From positions 62,001 to 126,000 of the forward strand of contig NZ_BAFM01000001.1 of NCBI RefSeq assembly GCF_000334895.1: 64,000 nt of DNA, in the 5' to 3' direction. The notes under the pieces are model-generated. The model was not told the origin of the DNA. It saw only the letters and a list, made by a program, of their open reading frames with translations, and searched no databases. Of the stretch, positions 7,807 through 16,162 are shown piece by piece. Every line of letters begins with the position of its first letter. The first letter of the stretch is position 1. The translations under genes and the position numbers were made by a program. The DNA is from Halococcus agarilyticus. Lineage in GTDB: Archaea; Halobacteriota; Halobacteria; Halobacteriales; Halococcaceae.

Positions 7807-8601
7807 ATGGACGAACGTGACGCGTCGATTCCCGGCGGACGGCGGGTGAAGGCCGTCGAGACGACCTGTCGAATCCTCACCGCGCTCCGTGACCTCGACG
7901 GCGCTGGTGTCACCGAGATCTCGGACCATCTGGGGCTGGCGAAAGCGACCGTGCACAGCCACCTCGCAACGCTCGCGGACAACGAGCTCGTGGTGAAACA
8001 CGACGAGACGTACGACGTGAGTCTGCGGTTCGTCGACTTCAGCGAGTACGCGAAGAGTCGCGTCGACATCTACGAGATCACGAAAGCCGAAGTCGAGCGT
8101 CTGGCGGACGAAACCGAGGAGGTGGCGCAGTTCATGGTCGAAGAGCACGGCAAGGGAGTCTACCTCCACAAGGAGCGGGGGAACAACGCGATCCAGACGG
8201 CTTCGTACACCGGCAATCGGAAGGCGCTTCACTGCACAGCGCTCGGAAAGGCGATCCTCTCCCAGCTCTCTCGCGAACGTGTCGACCAGATCGTCGACGA
8301 GAAGGGGCTCCCGAGACAGACGGACAGCACCATCACGACCCGCGACGAATTGCACGCCGAACTCGATCGGATTCGCGAGCAGGGAGTTTCGTTCGACGAC
8401 GAGGAGGTCCTCTCCGGTCTCCGGTGTGTCGCCGCACCGGTCCAGCACCCGACGGGTGACATGCCGGGCGCGATCAGTATCTCCGGCCCGACGACCCGCT
8501 TCGGGAAGGAGCGATTCAACGAGGAACTGCCGGAAATCGTCCGTGGAGCGGCCAACGTCATCGAACTGAACGCCACCCAGATCTCGAGAAGTACCGGCTG
8601 A
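7807..8601 (+). CDS. IclR-family transcriptional regulator
   Basis: DNA-binding regulator, 264 aa. The N-terminal winged helix-turn-helix spans about 15-75 (AVETTCRILTALRDL then an HTH around EISDHLGLAKATVHSHL). The IclR effector-binding domain fills about 85-255, with the family-typical LHCTALGKAIL near 140 and RCVAAPV near 207. TTAAG at about 7779-7783 is 24-28 bases before the ATG and would give a leaderless message. Gene position next to the importer and acid catabolism genes suggests it senses the pathway substrate or an intermediate. IclR proteins also regulate bacterial sulfolactate operons (SuyR). Confidence 0.9.
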   Translation: MDERDASIPGGRRVKAVETTCRILTALRDLDGAGVTEISDHLGLAKATVHSHLATLADNELVVKHDETYDVSLRFVDFSEYAKSRVDIYEITKAEVERLADETEEVAQFMVEEHGKGVYLHKERGNNAIQTASYTGNRKALHCTALGKAILSQLSRERVDQIVDEKGLPRQTDSTITTRDELHAELDRIREQGVSFDDEEVLSGLRCVAAPVQHPTGDMPGAISISGPTTRFGKERFNEELPEIVRGAANVIELNATQISRSTG

Positions 8602-9598: not shown

Positions 9599-10234
9599 TC
9601 ACTCCACGATGCCGACCGCGCGAACGGGAGCGCCATCGCCCCCGAGCGCCAGCGGGTACGCGCGGAGTTCGAAGCGTTCGGGTAGCGCCCCGAGATTGCG
9701 GAGGTTCTCGACGACGAGATCGCCGGCTCCGAGAACGGCGTGGTGGGCTCGAAACCCGTCGGGTTCGCTCCCGGTGGCGTTCTCGGTCGGGGTGGGATCC
9801 GGGCTCAGCGTGTCCGTGCCGACCGCATAGCCGCGCTCGGCACACGCCGTGGCCGCTTCGGGCGTCAGATAGGGATGGTCGAGATACCGATCGGTCCCCC
9901 AGTGGGTGCTCCAGCCGGTCCAGAAGACGACGAGATCCAGCTCGCGATCGGGGACGCGTTCCCGCGTGATGGGATCCCGATCGCCCAAGTCCGTGCAGTC
10001 CACCTTCTCGGCCTCGAAGGCGAATCGGTCCAGTGCATAGGTGTCAAGAGTCCGTCCGCCAGGGATGACGTGGATCGGCGCGTCGACGTGGGTACCGGTG
10101 TGACTTCCCAATCTGGCGACGTCGACTCGGTACTCGTCCCGAGCGTGGGTCGCATGCGGTTCGACTGAGACCGATGGATCGCCCGGATAGACGGTCATCC
10201 CGGTTTCGATCCGATGGCTGAGATCGATCGGCAC
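9599..10234 (-). CDS. Cyclase-family metal-dependent hydrolase (kynurenine formamidase-like)
   Basis: Cyclase superfamily hydrolase, 211 aa from the GTG at 10234. The metal-binding signature SHTGTHVDAPIHVIPGG is present, with His 45, His 49, Asp 51 and His 55. The N-terminal DLSHRIETGMTVYPGDP is the family's usual opening strand, which is why I prefer the GTG at 10234 over another GTG at 10297 that adds 21 residues. Members hydrolyse N-formylkynurenine, isatin or other cyclic amides. It is divergent from the sodium symporter and shares its promoter region, so it may act on the imported compound. Substrate unknown. Confidence 0.82.
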   Translation of the reverse strand: MPIDLSHRIETGMTVYPGDPSVSVEPHATHARDEYRVDVARLGSHTGTHVDAPIHVIPGGRTLDTYALDRFAFEAEKVDCTDLGDRDPITRERVPDRELDLVVFWTGWSTHWGTDRYLDHPYLTPEAATACAERGYAVGTDTLSPDPTPTENATGSEPDGFRAHHAVLGAGDLVVENLRNLGALPERFELRAYPLALGGDGAPVRAVGIVE

Positions 10235-10286
10235 GTTCGGCGATACGCCGCGACCGACAAATACTGTGTGATGTGGTGGCAGAAGA

Positions 10287-10294
10287 CTTATTAG
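10287..10294 (+). promoter_or_regulatory. TATA-like box of the symporter gene
   Basis: CTTATTAG, followed after 25 bases by the dyad at 10320-10337. The spacing puts the expected transcription start at the first half of the dyad. The message would then have a leader of about 65 bases with a GGGGGA ribosome site near 10376. Confidence 0.45.
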
Positions 10295-10319
10295 CACCGT
10301 TGCCTAGCCTCGACCCGAT

Positions 10320-10337
10320 GTGGCAACACATTACCAC
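10320..10337. promoter_or_regulatory. 18-bp dyad, probable NrpR-like operator of the symporter gene
   Basis: GTGGCA-ACACAT-TACCAC has the 6-6-6 layout and differs in one arm base from the perfect dyad GTGGCA-N6-TGCCAC at 13355-13372 in front of the agmatinase operon. Both copies lie 25-26 bases after a TATA-like box, at the expected transcription start. The only regulator between them is the NrpR-like protein at 12143-13105. Methanogen NrpR binds an inverted repeat with a 6-base spacer, though with different arms (GGAA/TTCC). Confidence 0.6.
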
Positions 10338-10387
10338 CGTGGGATCGGTCGGGCGGATCACGTCACGACTCCGTAGGGGGAGCGCCG

Positions 10388-11902
10388 ATGGTTGATCAGC
10401 TCGGCGGGTTCGGTCTCCTCGCTTTCTGGGCGGTCGTGATGATCTCGATCAGCTACTTCATCTATCGACGCCAGGGGGTGAACACCACCTCGGAGTTCAT
10501 CACCGCCGGCGGCCGTGCACAGGTCGGACTCGCGACCGCCTCGTTCGCGGTCACGTGGATGTGGGCCGGCGACGTGCTCGGGGTGCCCCAGTACGTCGGC
10601 ATCACTGGAGTCGCGGGTATCTGGATGTACGCTGCTCCCGCGGTGCTGTCCTCGCTCGTGGTGATCCCGTTCGCGCTCCGGATGCGCAAGCTCTTCCCGC
10701 AGGGGCTGACGTACTCGGAGTACTTCATCAAACGATTCGACAAGACCGCCCATCTCGTCGTCGTCTTCGTCGTTCTCTACACGATGGTTCTGGGCGGGGT
10801 GATTCAGCTGTTCGTCGGCGGCACCGTGATCGGCGGTCTCACCGGTATCGATCCGAACCTCGTGATGGCGGTGCTGATGGGCGTCATCGGCGTGTACATC
10901 CTTCTGGGCGGGCTCTGGGGATCGATGACGACGGACTTCATCCAGTTCATCAGCGCACTGGTTCTGACCCTGGTGTTCGTTCCGCTGTTGGTGTTCGAGG
11001 TCGGGGGCCCAGGGGTCGTCTACGATCAGATGGTACAGAACCTGGGGTCCGACGCACCCGCGTTCCTCTCGCTGGCGAACCTCGACGCGATCGAGGGGCT
11101 GTTCCTCCCCTACGCACTCGGACTGGGTGTGTGGGGCGTCGTCTCGCTGGCGACGTGGCAGCGTGTCTTCGCCGTCCGTCGCGACAAGACTTCCCGATTC
11201 CTGACCATCGGGGGGATCGGTGTCTTCACGACCATCGCGATGTACGGTGTCATCGGTCTCGTCGGGCTGGCGACGTTCACCGACGCCGCTCCGGGAAGCC
11301 TCACGACCGAAGTGCTCGGTCTCATGCCCGAGTGGGCGGTGATCGCGTTTCTGCTGGTCGCCCTCATGGTGTTGGGGTCGTCCGTCGACTCGTATCTGAC
11401 CGCGATCGCCAGCCTGACCGCGCGGGACATCTACTATCGTCACCTCGACACGGACGCGTCGGACGACCGGCAGCTCCGCGTTGCCCGCGTCGCGTCGGTC
11501 GGTTTCGCGGTGGTGATGTTCGTGGCGACGGTGCTCCTGCTGGATTCGATCAGCTTCACTCAGCTGCTGCTCGTCGGCGGTATCGGTGCCTCCGCGCTCG
11601 TGGGGCCGTTCGCGCTGTCGCTGTTCTGGCGGAAGATGTCGAGTGCCGGCTTCGTCACCGGTATCGTCGTCTCACAGCTGATCACCGCGTTCCTGCTCGC
11701 AGCCAGCTACGACGTGGTCGTGACCGGTCCCGATTTCATGCTGTGGGAGATCATGGCGATCGGCCATCTCGTCTCGACCGGGCTCGGGGCTGCAGTGAGC
11801 ATCGCTTCCCCCGACGAGTTCGAGTTCGAATCCATCGCCCAAGAGGGATCGTCGGTCGCGACCGACGGTGGTTCGTCCGATCGGGACGGTGACGCAGCAT
11901 GA
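10388..11902 (+). CDS. Sodium:solute symporter family (SSS) transporter
   Basis: Integral membrane sodium-coupled importer, 504 aa, with about 13 hydrophobic segments. SSS-typical features are an opening TM1, the segment FITAGGRAQVGLATASFAVTW-like core of TM2 near 35-58 and the sodium-site region GSSVDSYLTAIASLTARD near 335-353. The tail after about 470 is acidic and serine-rich. Its stop overlaps the start of a small two-helix membrane protein (ATGATGA), so the two are translationally coupled. The neighbours (cyclase hydrolase, ureohydrolase, aldehyde dehydrogenase) suggest a nitrogenous compound such as a polyamine or guanidino acid; this is inference. Confidence 0.88.
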   Translation: MVDQLGGFGLLAFWAVVMISISYFIYRRQGVNTTSEFITAGGRAQVGLATASFAVTWMWAGDVLGVPQYVGITGVAGIWMYAAPAVLSSLVVIPFALRMRKLFPQGLTYSEYFIKRFDKTAHLVVVFVVLYTMVLGGVIQLFVGGTVIGGLTGIDPNLVMAVLMGVIGVYILLGGLWGSMTTDFIQFISALVLTLVFVPLLVFEVGGPGVVYDQMVQNLGSDAPAFLSLANLDAIEGLFLPYALGLGVWGVVSLATWQRVFAVRRDKTSRFLTIGGIGVFTTIAMYGVIGLVGLATFTDAAPGSLTTEVLGLMPEWAVIAFLLVALMVLGSSVDSYLTAIASLTARDIYYRHLDTDASDDRQLRVARVASVGFAVVMFVATVLLLDSISFTQLLLVGGIGASALVGPFALSLFWRKMSSAGFVTGIVVSQLITAFLLAASYDVVVTGPDFMLWEIMAIGHLVSTGLGAAVSIASPDEFEFESIAQEGSSVATDGGSSDRDGDAA

Positions 11903-12129
11903 TGAGCCAGACCCTCTTTACCGGCATGATCGTCGTGTTCTGGCTCGCCGAGTTCGTCTTCGGGACAGTCGTCGTTTACTGGTTCCTCACTCAGGGGCTG
12001 GGCGACGAACGAGGCACGGCAAGCGGTCCCGTGCGGACCCTCGAGGACCGATCGTACACGGTTCGGTCGCTCGTGATGTGGACTGGCTTCTTTGCGGTGC
12101 TCCTGGTGGGGATCGTCGTGGGTGCCTGA
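11899..12129 (+). CDS. Small two-helix membrane protein, probable symporter partner
   Basis: 76 aa with two hydrophobic helices (about 7-31 and 56-75) separated by a short charged loop. It starts within the stop codon of the SSS transporter (4-base overlap), which implies fixed stoichiometry. Small accessory proteins encoded next to SSS-type symporters are known as a general pattern. No specific family could be named with certainty. The likely role is assembly or stability of the transporter. Confidence 0.7.
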   Translation: MMSQTLFTGMIVVFWLAEFVFGTVVVYWFLTQGLGDERGTASGPVRTLEDRSYTVRSLVMWTGFFAVLLVGIVVGA

Positions 12130-12142
12130 CGTCGGGACCGAC

Positions 12143-13105
12143 TCACCGCTGTCCGGCGACCGTCGGCACGGGATCGAGTGCAGTCCGCGCGCGAACCCCC
12201 TCGAGCGAGCGCCACTCGTCGAGCAGGTCGTGCTCCTGCAACAACGCCAGCGCGATCTCGCCGGCCCCACCGTAGGTGAGCGACACGAAATCCCATCCGG
12301 GTGTGCCGACCGGAAACGGTCCCGACTCGCGTGGTCGGCGGAGGTCCACGACCCCGCCGAGCTGCTCACGGGTCGCCGTCGAAAGGGTTCGTGTCTCCTC
12401 GAACCGAGTCAGCGGGACCTCGCGGTTGTCGACGATCAGCACCCCCGTGCCGGCCTCGAGATAGCTGGTCACGTCCGTCCTTCCGGCGTCTATCAGCAGA
12501 CTCACGACGTCCATCGTCGAGCCCTCCCCGCTGATCGTGTCCGTATATCGGGTGACACGTCCGTCGTACTCGACGAGTCCCGCGGTGATGAGACGGGCGT
12601 TGATGCCACGGGTGAGGAGGACGCCGTCGAGGGTGACGCTCGATGGGATCACCAGCTCCACGCCCTCCCCATCGTACTCGGTGTCGACCAGCACCGGTCC
12701 GATCGCGGACGTGTGGAGCCGGGAGAGCACGTCGAACGCGGCGTCGGCGTCCGAGTCGGCTATCCGTCCCATCCCCACGATGCATTCGCCCCTGTCCTCG
12801 GTCGGGTCGTAGGTCACCTGGCTGGTGAGCGTCGCGATCCGTTCACGGACGCGCGCCAGGCGACTCCCCACGTCGCCACGAAGCAGCTCCGCCTTCCCCT
12901 CCTCGGTGAGTCTGCGACCCTTTCCAGCCACTTTCTCGGTGAGTCCGTCGGCATCGAGTTCCGAGAGGAGCAGGCGGATCGTCCGGTCCTTGATGGAGTA
13001 GCCGCGGCGTTGCATCAGATCGACGAGCCTGATGCTCCCGATCGGCTCGTCTTCGTCGATCAGACGCAACAGATCGTACGTCCGACGGTCCATCTCTGTC
13101 CCCAT
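12143..13105 (-). CDS. NrpR-like transcriptional repressor (winged helix plus NRD/DUF128 domain)
   Basis: 320 aa. An N-terminal winged helix (about 7-72) opens with DRRTYDLLRLIDEDEPIGSIRL and is followed by a single NrpR regulatory domain (about 85-315). The opening MGRIAD and the conserved LTRGINARLITAGLVEY near 170 place it in the DUF128/NRD family. In methanogens NrpR represses nitrogen genes and is released by 2-oxoglutarate when nitrogen is short. It lies between a transporter gene and a divergent ureohydrolase/aldehyde dehydrogenase operon, both preceded by the same 18-bp dyad. ATG 13105 is used; ATG 13093 is an alternative. Confidence 0.8.
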   Translation of the reverse strand: MGTEMDRRTYDLLRLIDEDEPIGSIRLVDLMQRRGYSIKDRTIRLLLSELDADGLTEKVAGKGRRLTEEGKAELLRGDVGSRLARVRERIATLTSQVTYDPTEDRGECIVGMGRIADSDADAAFDVLSRLHTSAIGPVLVDTEYDGEGVELVIPSSVTLDGVLLTRGINARLITAGLVEYDGRVTRYTDTISGEGSTMDVVSLLIDAGRTDVTSYLEAGTGVLIVDNREVPLTRFEETRTLSTATREQLGGVVDLRRPRESGPFPVGTPGWDFVSLTYGGAGEIALALLQEHDLLDEWRSLEGVRARTALDPVPTVAGQR

Positions 13106-13320
13106 TCGCTGCGTGACTCGTCGGGCCGACGACCCAAAAAGTCCCCGTGTCTCACGGTCGGCGTTCCCCGCAGCGATGACGGACCGCCTCGTGCGCCGAC
13201 CCGGGGACCGAGTGACGACCGCGAACCCGTCTGGATCCGGATGCAGTCCTCTCCGCCCTCTCCGAACGCTCGGAACCGCCAGTCCGGGACGTCGACCGCG
13301 CCGGCTGCGCGCACCTCAAG

Positions 13321-13328
13321 ATTTTTAG
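13321..13328 (+). promoter_or_regulatory. TATA-like box of the agmatinase operon
   Basis: ATTTTTAG, followed after 26 bases by the dyad at 13355-13372. The geometry is the same as at the symporter promoter (box 10287-10294, dyad 10320-10337). Confidence 0.5.
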
Positions 13329-13354
13329 GTGACCCGATCTCCATCACGAACACG

Positions 13355-13372
13355 GTGGCATACAATTGCCAC
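13355..13372. promoter_or_regulatory. 18-bp perfect dyad, probable NrpR-like operator of the agmatinase operon
   Basis: GTGGCA-TACAAT-TGCCAC is a perfect inverted repeat with a 6-base centre, ending 11 bases before the ATG at 13384. It overlaps the expected transcription start, so a bound protein would repress. The matching site at 10320-10337 has one changed base. The divergent NrpR-like gene starts 250 bases away and has its own promoter, so autoregulation by this site is less likely. Confidence 0.65.
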
Positions 13373-13383
13373 ACTGTCAACAC

Positions 13384-13638
13384 ATGTCCCAGCAAGCCAG
13401 TTCCCGATCGAACGAGCACACGGAGACGGTCGTCCACGGTTGCAGCTACGCCCACCCGAGCCGACCCGTCGCCGACCTCGCGGAACGGCCGGTCGAAACC
13501 ACGCCGGGCGATCTCCGGCAGTCGTTTTTCGGCAACGAGAACGTGCGCCGGTTCCGAGCGCCACTCGCCACCGAACGAGTCCAGTCGGGTCGTGGCGTCG
13601 AGGTGTTCCGTGCGGCACTCACCGGAGGGGCGACGTGA
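13384..13638 (+). CDS. Unknown 84-aa protein, first gene of the agmatinase operon
   Basis: Not recognised. 84 aa, soluble, no signal or membrane segment. It contains the stretch HGCSYAHPSRPVADLAERPV with a single Cys and two His residues in the first third, and an arginine-rich second half (FFGNENVRRFRAPLATERV). Its stop overlaps the GTG of the ureohydrolase (GTGA), which argues that it is translated and needed with it. It could be a small regulator, chaperone or metal carrier for the manganese enzyme downstream; nothing in the sequence decides. The ATG at 13384 is used because it follows directly after the operator. Confidence 0.65.
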   Translation: MSQQASSRSNEHTETVVHGCSYAHPSRPVADLAERPVETTPGDLRQSFFGNENVRRFRAPLATERVQSGRGVEVFRAALTGGAT

Positions 13639-14660
13639 CGGAGCATAACGGGTTCGCCCGCGATGCCGCCGCTCACGATCCGGGTGTCCAGCTGCCGTAT
13701 GCCGGAATCGACACCTTCCTGAAGGCGGAGTATCGAGACGTCGGGAGCCTGTCCGACGTCGATGCCGGGGTGATCGGGGTTCCCTACGACGGTGCAGTGA
13801 GCAATCGGCCCGGCGCGCGCTACGGTCCGCGGGCGATCCGTCGGGCGAGCGGGTGGTGGGCGTACCTCTCCGGGTACAAGGGGGGGCTCACGGACATGCG
13901 GACCGGAAATCAGGTGAACTTCGGTGCACTCTCGGTCGCTGACTGTGGGGACGTGCCGGTCTTCCCGATGGATCACGAACGGACAGCCGAGAGCATCGAG
14001 ACGCACGTGGGGGCCATCGCCGAGCAGACGGTTCCCGTCGTGTTGGGCGGTGATCACTACTGCACGGCACCCGCCGTCAGGGGCTTCGCTGCGGGGGCCG
14101 GGCACGAGACGGTCGGGCTCGTGCAGATAGACGCACACACGGACACGAGTACCGCCAGTCCCGTCTTCGGCGACGAGTTCCACGGATCGAGTGCCGCGCT
14201 GGTCGCCGACTCCCCGTACAGCGACTATCGTCACATCAGCCAGGTCGGGATCCGTGGCTACGAGTCACCGGACTTCTTCGAGTTCGCCGACGAGACCGGC
14301 CTGAACCTCTACACGATGCGTGACGTGGCCGAACACGGCATCCGTCACGTCGTTCGGGACGCGGTGACGGCAGCCGCAGCGGAGACGGACGCGGTGTACG
14401 TGACGTACGACATCGACGGCGTGGACCCGGCCGTCGCGCCGGGGACTGGCACGCCGGAACCGGGCGGGCTCTCCGCCGACGAAGCGCTCGCCGTCGTCGA
14501 AACACTCGGCCAGCACGATGCCGTCGGCGCGATCGACCTGATGGAGGTTGCCCCGGGATACGACGACAGCGAGGGGACGCAGCGCCTCGCTGCGTATCTG
14601 CTGGTGAGCTTTCTCGGCCGTCGGTTCGCCGAGTCAGGGGTCGATCACGACCACTCATGA
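13635..14660 (+). CDS. Agmatinase/arginase-family ureohydrolase
   Basis: Binuclear-manganese ureohydrolase, 341 aa, that splits urea from a guanidino compound (agmatine, 4-guanidinobutyrate or similar). Metal ligands are visible: His 141 in VLGGDHY, Asp 166/His 168/Asp 170 in IDAHTD, and Asp 259/Asp 261 in YDIDGVDP. The usual GGDHS is GGDHY here. GTG start at 13635 overlaps the stop of the small upstream gene, and its own stop overlaps the ATG of the aldehyde dehydrogenase. Together with that enzyme it would form a route from a guanidino compound to urea and an amino acid. Confidence 0.88.
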   Translation: MTEHNGFARDAAAHDPGVQLPYAGIDTFLKAEYRDVGSLSDVDAGVIGVPYDGAVSNRPGARYGPRAIRRASGWWAYLSGYKGGLTDMRTGNQVNFGALSVADCGDVPVFPMDHERTAESIETHVGAIAEQTVPVVLGGDHYCTAPAVRGFAAGAGHETVGLVQIDAHTDTSTASPVFGDEFHGSSAALVADSPYSDYRHISQVGIRGYESPDFFEFADETGLNLYTMRDVAEHGIRHVVRDAVTAAAAETDAVYVTYDIDGVDPAVAPGTGTPEPGGLSADEALAVVETLGQHDAVGAIDLMEVAPGYDDSEGTQRLAAYLLVSFLGRRFAESGVDHDHS

Positions 14661-16162
14661 ACGATCGAAACGTCACCGACGACCTGGCGACAGCCCACGA
14701 GCGAGCCATCGAACGGGCCACCGACGGACGACGGTTCGCCGCGTGGATCGACGGGAGCGCTCACGAGGCCGCATCGGGGGCGACCTTCGCGACGCGCGAT
14801 CCCGCGACCGACACCCCGATCACCACCGTCCCACGGTGTGACGAGCCCGAAATCGACGCCGCTGTCGAGGCCGCTCGAACGGCCTTCGAGGGTGCTTGGA
14901 GCGCTCTCTCGCACGAGGAACGGGCCGATCGGCTGCTGGAGTGGGCCGACCGGCTGACCCGACACACCGACGAGCTCGCGCTGCTGGAATGTCTCGACAC
15001 CGGGAAGCCGCTCGAATTCGCCGAGGCCGAGATACGGGAGGGGATCGGCTACATCGAGTACTACGCCCACCTGCTCCACGGCGATACCGACGAGCGGGTC
15101 CCGATCGACGGTGAGACCCACGCGTACACCCGGGAGGAACCGTACGGTGTCGCCGGCCTCATCGTCCCCTGGAACTATCCGGTTCTGTTGAGCTGTTGGA
15201 AACTCGGTCCCGCACTGGCGGCCGGCAACTCCGTCGTGCTCAAGCCCGCCGAACTGACCCCTCTGACCGCGACGCGGTTCGCACAGCTGGCCGAGGGACT
15301 CCTGCCACCGGGAACGCTGAACGTCGTTCACGGGCTCGGCGACGAGGCCGGCAGTGCGCTGACCGGTCACCCGGGGATCGACAAACTCTCGTTCACCGGG
15401 GAGGACACGACGGGCGAGATCGTGATGGGCGCAGCCGCCGAACACATCACTCCCGTCACGCTCGAACTGGGCGGCAAGTCACCGTTCGTGGTCTTCCCCG
15501 ACGCCGATCTGGAAGCGACCGCTGCCACCGCAGCCGAGGGGATCCTCTACAACGCGGGTCAGTCCTGCGATGCGCTCTCACGAACGCTGGTTCACGAGGC
15601 CGTTCACGACGAGTTCCTCGAACGCTTCGTCTCGGCGGCCGCCGAGTGGACCGTCGGCGACCCCCTCGCGGAGGACACGACGATCGGACCGCTGGCCTCC
15701 GAACAGCAGCTCGAAACGGTACACGAGTACATCGAGCTCGGTCGGGAAAGCGACGCGGAACTCGTGACCGGCGGCGACAGCAGCGATGGGGCGGATGTGG
15801 GGTGGTTCGTCGAGCCGACCGTCTTCGATGGGGTCGCGAACGACAGCCGTCTCGCCCAGGAGGAGATCTTCGGCCCCGTGGCCTCGGTCGTCTCCTTCGG
15901 GAGCTACGACGAGGCGATCGAGCTGGCCAACGACGTCGACTACGGGCTGGCTGCAGCGATCGCCACGGAGGATCTCTCGTTGGCACATCGGGCCGCCGCG
16001 GACATCGAGGCCGGCACCGTCTGGGTCAACGACTACGCACGGTTCTCGCCGGGACTGGCGTTCGGTGGCTTCAAACGGTCGGGTATCGGGCGGGAGTGCG
16101 GGCCGGAAGCACTGAACGAGTATCGACAGCAAAAGACCGTCACCATCGCCCTGAACGGGTAG
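14657..16162 (+). CDS. NAD(P)-dependent aldehyde dehydrogenase (betaine/aminobutyraldehyde type)
   Basis: Aldehyde dehydrogenase, 501 aa, normal length. The catalytic Cys 304 lies in GQSCDAL and the general base Glu 270 in VTLELGGKSP. The cofactor region PWNYPVLLSCWKLGPALAAG is near 171-190 and the C-terminal FGGFKRSGIGRECG signature near 468-481. It is coupled to the ureohydrolase by a 4-base overlap. In polyamine or guanidine breakdown such enzymes oxidise 4-aminobutyraldehyde or 4-guanidinobutyraldehyde, and the product would be GABA or 4-guanidinobutyrate. No aminotransferase or amine oxidase is present next to it. Confidence 0.88.
   Translation: MNDRNVTDDLATAHERAIERATDGRRFAAWIDGSAHEAASGATFATRDPATDTPITTVPRCDEPEIDAAVEAARTAFEGAWSALSHEERADRLLEWADRLTRHTDELALLECLDTGKPLEFAEAEIREGIGYIEYYAHLLHGDTDERVPIDGETHAYTREEPYGVAGLIVPWNYPVLLSCWKLGPALAAGNSVVLKPAELTPLTATRFAQLAEGLLPPGTLNVVHGLGDEAGSALTGHPGIDKLSFTGEDTTGEIVMGAAAEHITPVTLELGGKSPFVVFPDADLEATAATAAEGILYNAGQSCDALSRTLVHEAVHDEFLERFVSAAAEWTVGDPLAEDTTIGPLASEQQLETVHEYIELGRESDAELVTGGDSSDGADVGWFVEPTVFDGVANDSRLAQEEIFGPVASVVSFGSYDEAIELANDVDYGLAAAIATEDLSLAHRAAADIEAGTVWVNDYARFSPGLAFGGFKRSGIGRECGPEALNEYRQQKTVTIALNG

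Follow-up and report, generated by a model that had tools for sequence, protein, structure and literature searches.

Promoter dyads in Halococcus agarilyticus as probable operators of a local NrpR-like regulator

NrpR is known as a nitrogen regulator of methanogens. In Methanococcus maripaludis it is a repressor that binds GGAA-N6-TTCC, and one of its reported targets is a sodium symporter (alanine) (PMC2723118). In Methanosarcina mazei the NrpR repressor is freed by 2-oxoglutarate, which serves as the effector in methanogens (PMC11957540). According to a 2019 paper, haloarchaea that are not methanogens do not conserve an NrpR-type regulator (PMC6801745). The open literature, which the search covered, yielded no paper on an NrpR operator or regulon of haloarchaea. 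The comparisons below make it very probable that haloarchaea have a small local version of this nitrogen switch, hitherto described for methanogens.

The window analysed here is a stretch of 64,000 nucleotides from Halococcus agarilyticus. Its NrpR-like gene lies on the minus strand between two copies of an inverted repeat, each placed in a promoter of the opposite strand. The relevant features are as follows (window coordinates):

9599–10297, minus strand: putative cyclase/arylformamidase-like gene (PF04199, E=1.2e-24; start codon uncertain)
10287–10294, plus strand: TATA box of the symporter promoter, CTTATTAG, with the hexamer TTATTA at 10288–10293
10320–10337, plus strand: putative operator 1, GTGGCAACACATTACCAC, 26 bases past the TATA box; kept in 11/12 orthologous promoters
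10388–11902, plus strand: sodium:solute symporter (SSS/SSF), 504 aa, putative target gene (PF00474, E=1.7e-17)
11902–12129, plus strand: small, probably two-helix membrane protein, 75 aa (helix count read off the sequence); overlaps the symporter stop
12143–13105, minus strand: NrpR-like regulator, 320 aa; winged helix at residues 7–66, long linker helix at 68–96, one NRD
13322–13327, plus strand: TATA box of the catabolic operon promoter, hexamer TTTTTA, within CTCAAGATTTTTAGG
13355–13372, plus strand: putative operator 2, GTGGCATACAATTGCCAC, a perfect dyad 27 bases past the TATA box
13384–13638, plus strand: class-III aminotransferase remnant, 84 aa, with an internal deletion; first open reading frame of the operon
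13635–14660, plus strand: agmatinase-family ureohydrolase, 341 aa (PF00491, E=3.1e-76)
14657–16162, plus strand: aldehyde dehydrogenase of 501 aa, which closes the operon (PF00171, E=2.6e-168)

Does the regulator belong to the NrpR family? Pfam profile searches find both of the expected domains, the HTH_12 winged helix (PF08461, E=2.8e-12, 46.8 bits against a cut-off of 21.4) and the NRD (NRD1_2, PF01995, E=1.8e-24, 86.7 bits against a cut-off of 25). An AlphaFold model built from 42 homologues has a mean pLDDT of 89.8 and contains the winged helix. Foldseek matches this model to the NRD structure of MJ0159 (3nek) with E=1.3e-13 and a TM score of 0.82 over the target, and a sequence-profile search finds the same structure with E=5e-9; identity between the two proteins is about 19%. 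Residues R41, R44, L47 and L50 of the recognition helix are invariant among the 42 homologues, and T42 and L45 are nearly so. The protein contains one NRD stretch, with no second NRD, and it is the single NrpR homologue of this genome. Family architecture varies, and a single NRD is therefore a variant rather than grounds for exclusion from the NrpR family. The M. mazei regulator, of the same family, differs in acting with a second protein, NrpRII, whereas no NRD-only partner was found in this genome. A search of 394 Halobacteriales genomes gave a match at E≤0.001 in 56, comprising 46 clear homologues (about 12% of the genomes) and 10 marginal ones with E of about 1e-4.

An earlier note on this DNA had pointed to an 18-base operator, GTGGCA-N6-TGCCAC, at the two promoters. 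A motif scan of the window recovers both copies where it had placed them, the perfect one at 13355–13372 and one with a single arm mismatch at 10320–10337, both on the plus strand. They were said to begin 25–26 bases after a TATA-like box; the measured distances are 26 and 27 bases. When up to three mismatches are allowed, the window contains 14 matches against 24.7 expected by shuffling. As this loose count does not exceed the shuffles, the signal in the window lies in the near-perfect copies. The frequency of the motif was checked genome-wide: the exact dyad occurs once in the 3.48-Mb genome, at 13355–13372, and one-mismatch dyads occur at six further places, the 10320 site and five others. 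The relaxed form TGGNA-N6-TNCCA is found ten times (15 for the reversed control), and only the two copies at the nrpR cluster combine a TATA box with promoter position; inspection of the other eight found none in the TATA-plus-27 position. In 20,000 shuffles of the two intergenic regions (370 bases) the mean was 0.004 relaxed dyads, and two never appeared.

In an alignment of twelve symporter promoters, conservation is mainly confined to the dyad, the two bases preceding it and a TATA box at -34 to -30 relative to it; the spacing between TATA box and dyad is fixed, and most of the intervening stretch varies. The TATA box of the window symporter lines up with the TTTATTAG-type box that the remaining symporter promoters have, a second conservation peak besides the dyad. 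At the catabolic promoter, CTCAAGATTTTT also lies 5' of the orthologous dyads of loci L106 and L107, which read GTGGAATACGGGTTCCAT and GTGGAATAGGGGTTCCAT, and 11 bases separate the end of operator 2 from the first ATG. Established archaeal promoter spacing puts the expected transcription start only a few bases 5' of each dyad. A bound dimer would therefore cover the first transcribed bases, and for this reason repression is favoured. The suggestion that the position fits NrpR-type repression thus holds up, with the dyad just downstream of the expected start, an NrpR-type gene between the dyads and co-occurrence of the two across genomes.

At the level of sequence, the decisive evidence for the dyads as putative operators is their conservation across other species. 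In 50 NrpR-homologue loci (0.98 Mb), a spacer of six bases separates the arms GTGGCA/TGCCAC in 11 exact copies and in 59 copies when one mismatch is tolerated; the other spacers yield 0–1 and 0–4, respectively. The relaxed arms TGGNA/TNCCA occur 95 times at spacer six and 2–17 times at other spacers; this pattern was derived from the loci in which it is counted, a circularity that the spacer comparison and the NrpR-free controls address. Of the permuted arms used as controls, one, GTCGAG, gives more one-mismatch matches (107) than GTGGCA, probably because of coding-sequence bias, but 3 exact matches versus 11. In the homologue loci the dyads precede the agmatinase-family operon and the symporter; where a genome has two NrpR copies, they also precede a polyamine-type ABC transporter.

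The association with the regulator extends to individual putative target genes. Of 388 genomes, 12 have an orthologue of the symporter, and every one of these belongs to the 46 with a clear NrpR homologue (Fisher p=2e-12). In 11 of their symporter promoters the dyad follows just behind the TATA box; the remaining one, that of genome G170, reads CGGAA-N6-TACCA, one mismatch away. The pattern holds in G193, G307 and G352, where symporter and nrpR sit on separate contigs. For the agmatinase-family gene, the controls were orthologues from 30 genomes that lack NrpR. An exact relaxed dyad lies within 2 kb upstream at 31 of 48 NrpR-bearing loci and at 0 of 30 NrpR-free loci (p=1e-9); with one mismatch allowed the counts are 47/48 and 10/30, and the dyads of those 10 NrpR-free loci are at scattered positions. 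The species are related, so these p-values overstate independence; the contrast is large, and the unlinked symporters and NrpR-free controls partly answer the objection. What computation shows comprises the family of the protein, the dyad sites with their conservation and position in promoters, and the dependence of those sites on the regulator being present.

How does the operator compare with that of methanogens? The haloarchaeal system shares with that of M. maripaludis a regulator of the HTH_12 plus NRD family and a dyad with four-base arms, their register, the six-base spacer and the promoter placement; a sodium symporter is a reported target there and a putative one here. The spacer had already been likened to that of NrpR, and it is the same as in GGAA-N6-TTCC (PMC2723118). 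Of the four-base arm only the third base differs, being C (GGCA) and degenerate here but A in the methanogen. The systems differ further in that the window protein has one NRD, 320 residues and low identity to methanogen NrpR; in that its putative targets are the symporter and the agmatinase-family operon rather than nif, glnA or glnK-amtB; and in that its regulon is probably local rather than global.

The earlier note had read the arm difference as a diverged specificity. The difference in the third base stands, but the position is degenerate. Across homologues it is C, A or T; the flanking TGG and A are fixed by the pattern used, and the orthologous symporter promoters keep them too, the only exception being a single base of one genome. 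Among genomes of the Halobellus type, the symporter promoter carries ATGGTAATNCATTACCAC (GGTA-N6-TACC) and the catabolic promoter GTGGAATANNNGTTCCAY (GGAA-N6-TTCC, with one further mismatch in L017), next to a regulator about 65–68% identical to that of the window. The methanogen form GGAA-N6-TTCC itself occurs in orthologous promoters of L016, L050 and L051 and at both sites of L058, the genome of which (G352) has GTGGAA-N6-TTCCAC twice. As closely similar regulators adjoin C, A and T variants and the helix residues are conserved, one type of regulator appears to tolerate different third bases. The evidence favours a relaxed third position, TGGNA-N6-TNCCA, rather than a switched specificity.

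Because of the spacer-six enrichment, the co-occurrence of symporter and NrpR and the absence of the exact relaxed dyad from NrpR-free loci, the dyad very probably serves as the operator through which NrpR controls a small local regulon for guanidino/amine catabolism and uptake. We regard it as highly likely that the two dyads are operators of the protein encoded at 12143–13105, acting as a local repressor that is released by an effector. Binding, repression as the direction of control, the effector and the substrate are inferred. A dimer of the NrpR-like protein would bind TGGNA-N6-TNCCA through its two winged helices and, sitting right after the start site, would block RNA polymerase at both promoters. 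Promoter 1 would drive the symporter and its small partner, and promoter 2 a guanidino/amine breakdown operon made up of the aminotransferase remnant, the agmatinase-family hydrolase and the aldehyde dehydrogenase. The repressor would come off the DNA once its NRD binds an effector; most simply this would be 2-oxoglutarate, rising under nitrogen limitation, or alternatively a metabolite of the pathway.

The agmatinase-family protein scores 174.5 bits against TIGR01230 (cut-off 174.3) and has the metal-ligand motifs GGDH, DAHTD and DIDGVDP. No NCBIfam equivalog over cut-off was among the matches listed for the aldehyde dehydrogenase. The 84-residue remnant matches residues 72–132 and 407–435 of an intact 444-aa enzyme (PF00202) in the same place in L016; the aminotransferase is intact (about 444 aa) at this place in other genomes, and the copy here has lost the greater part of its middle. 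The 75-aa protein has no Pfam match; it adjoins the symporter, mostly with 48–67% identity, in most genomes possessing both, and looks like a small transporter subunit. The cyclase/arylformamidase-like gene is divergent from the symporter, neighbours it in most genomes with both and may share operator 1.

Locality of the regulon makes a pathway compound a serious alternative effector, and an NrpR-like protein that senses an amine or guanidino compound or product instead of 2-oxoglutarate, and so is no nitrogen regulator, is a reading to which we give somewhat less than an even chance. The regulator adjoins its targets, occurs in a minority of haloarchaea and has two promoter sites in this genome, and many genomes have two copies of it around a PotD-like polyamine-type ABC transporter with dyads in the cluster. 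The retained NRD fold speaks against this, as does the 2-oxoglutarate effector of the methanogen NRD (PMC11957540). A related view, on which we are evenly divided, takes haloarchaeal NrpR as a distinct branch in which a global nitrogen repressor was repurposed as a local guanidino/polyamine switch, with a partly relaxed operator whose third arm base drifts between C, A and T and perhaps a pathway compound as effector. We know of no NRD effector other than 2-oxoglutarate, and that in methanogens. At the level of a genome-wide dyad scan, the presence of only two promoter sites in this genome tends to argue against global control of nitrogen assimilation (glnA, glnK-amtB, nif).

Could the NrpR-like protein act on the dyad as an activator? 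Both sites are placed 3' of the TATA box and of the expected start, where a bound protein blocks rather than recruits, and known NrpR is a repressor (PMC2723118); activation is improbable. The dyads might instead serve another regulator, such as the IclR-type protein encoded nearby at 7807–8601, or reflect chance or the shared ancestry of one promoter. An IclR-type gene was found in a single homologue locus (L068), whereas the dyad tracks the NrpR-like gene, and the dyad stands in two promoters with different flanks against the shuffling expectation of 0.004, which leaves such explanations very improbable. Just past the expected start as they are, the dyads would also have transcripts open with GUGGCA-N6-UGCCAC, so that a hairpin at the 5' end might control stability or translation. 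The third arm bases, however, are non-complementary in about a third of sites (C/A, C/T or A/G, for example), 11/12 orthologous promoters show no compensatory pair changes of TGG/CCA, and the presence of the dyad depends on a DNA-binding protein; action in RNA is very improbable. Repression by the NrpR-like protein at DNA level is the reading we retain.

A large genome-wide regulon was also considered and rejected, because the motif with up to two mismatches is rarer than its reversed-pattern control in the whole genome (75 against 235) and because 24 genomes, some having NrpR and some lacking it, show no genome-wide enrichment of TGGCA-N6-TGCCA.

About 12% of the sampled Halobacteriales genomes have a dedicated NrpR branch with a well-defined putative operator and target set, through which nitrogen-source control in haloarchaea becomes directly testable. 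It would offer a route to the function of the agmatinase-family operon and the symporter, and the C/A/T series at one arm position in orthologous promoters would form a natural series for the drift of repressor and operator.

Several minor observations concern further dyads. Two NrpR-like genes flank a polyamine-type ABC transporter in many genomes (L060–L072, L078, L080, L087 and L088); the cluster encodes a PotD-like binding protein, a fused permease and an ATPase, and the outer bases of its dyads often give CTGGCA or CCGGCA. A further dyad is found where the cyclase gene ends, in L016 (11486–11503), L017 (11552–11569), L051 (7089–7106) and L054 (6366–6383). In the Halobellus-type loci L016, L017 and L051 a gene follows 3' of this dyad, in L016 an aldehyde ferredoxin oxidoreductase homologue, and it is possibly a third target.

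Upstream regions of nifH were searched as well. Those scanned from genus f19 g128, which we take to be Methanosarcina, gave a single loose match to GGNA-N6-TNCC and otherwise no promoter dyad of that form. Outside the haloarchaea the pattern occurs in 7 of 30 nifH upstream regions, too few and too scattered to conclude from. In two non-haloarchaeal regions, L203 and L205, the dyads TGGAATAGAGGTGCCA and TGGAATGGAGGTGCCA lie some 125 bases 5' of the P-loop motif; with GGAA and GGCA arms combined, they are possible NrpR operators of an intermediate type.
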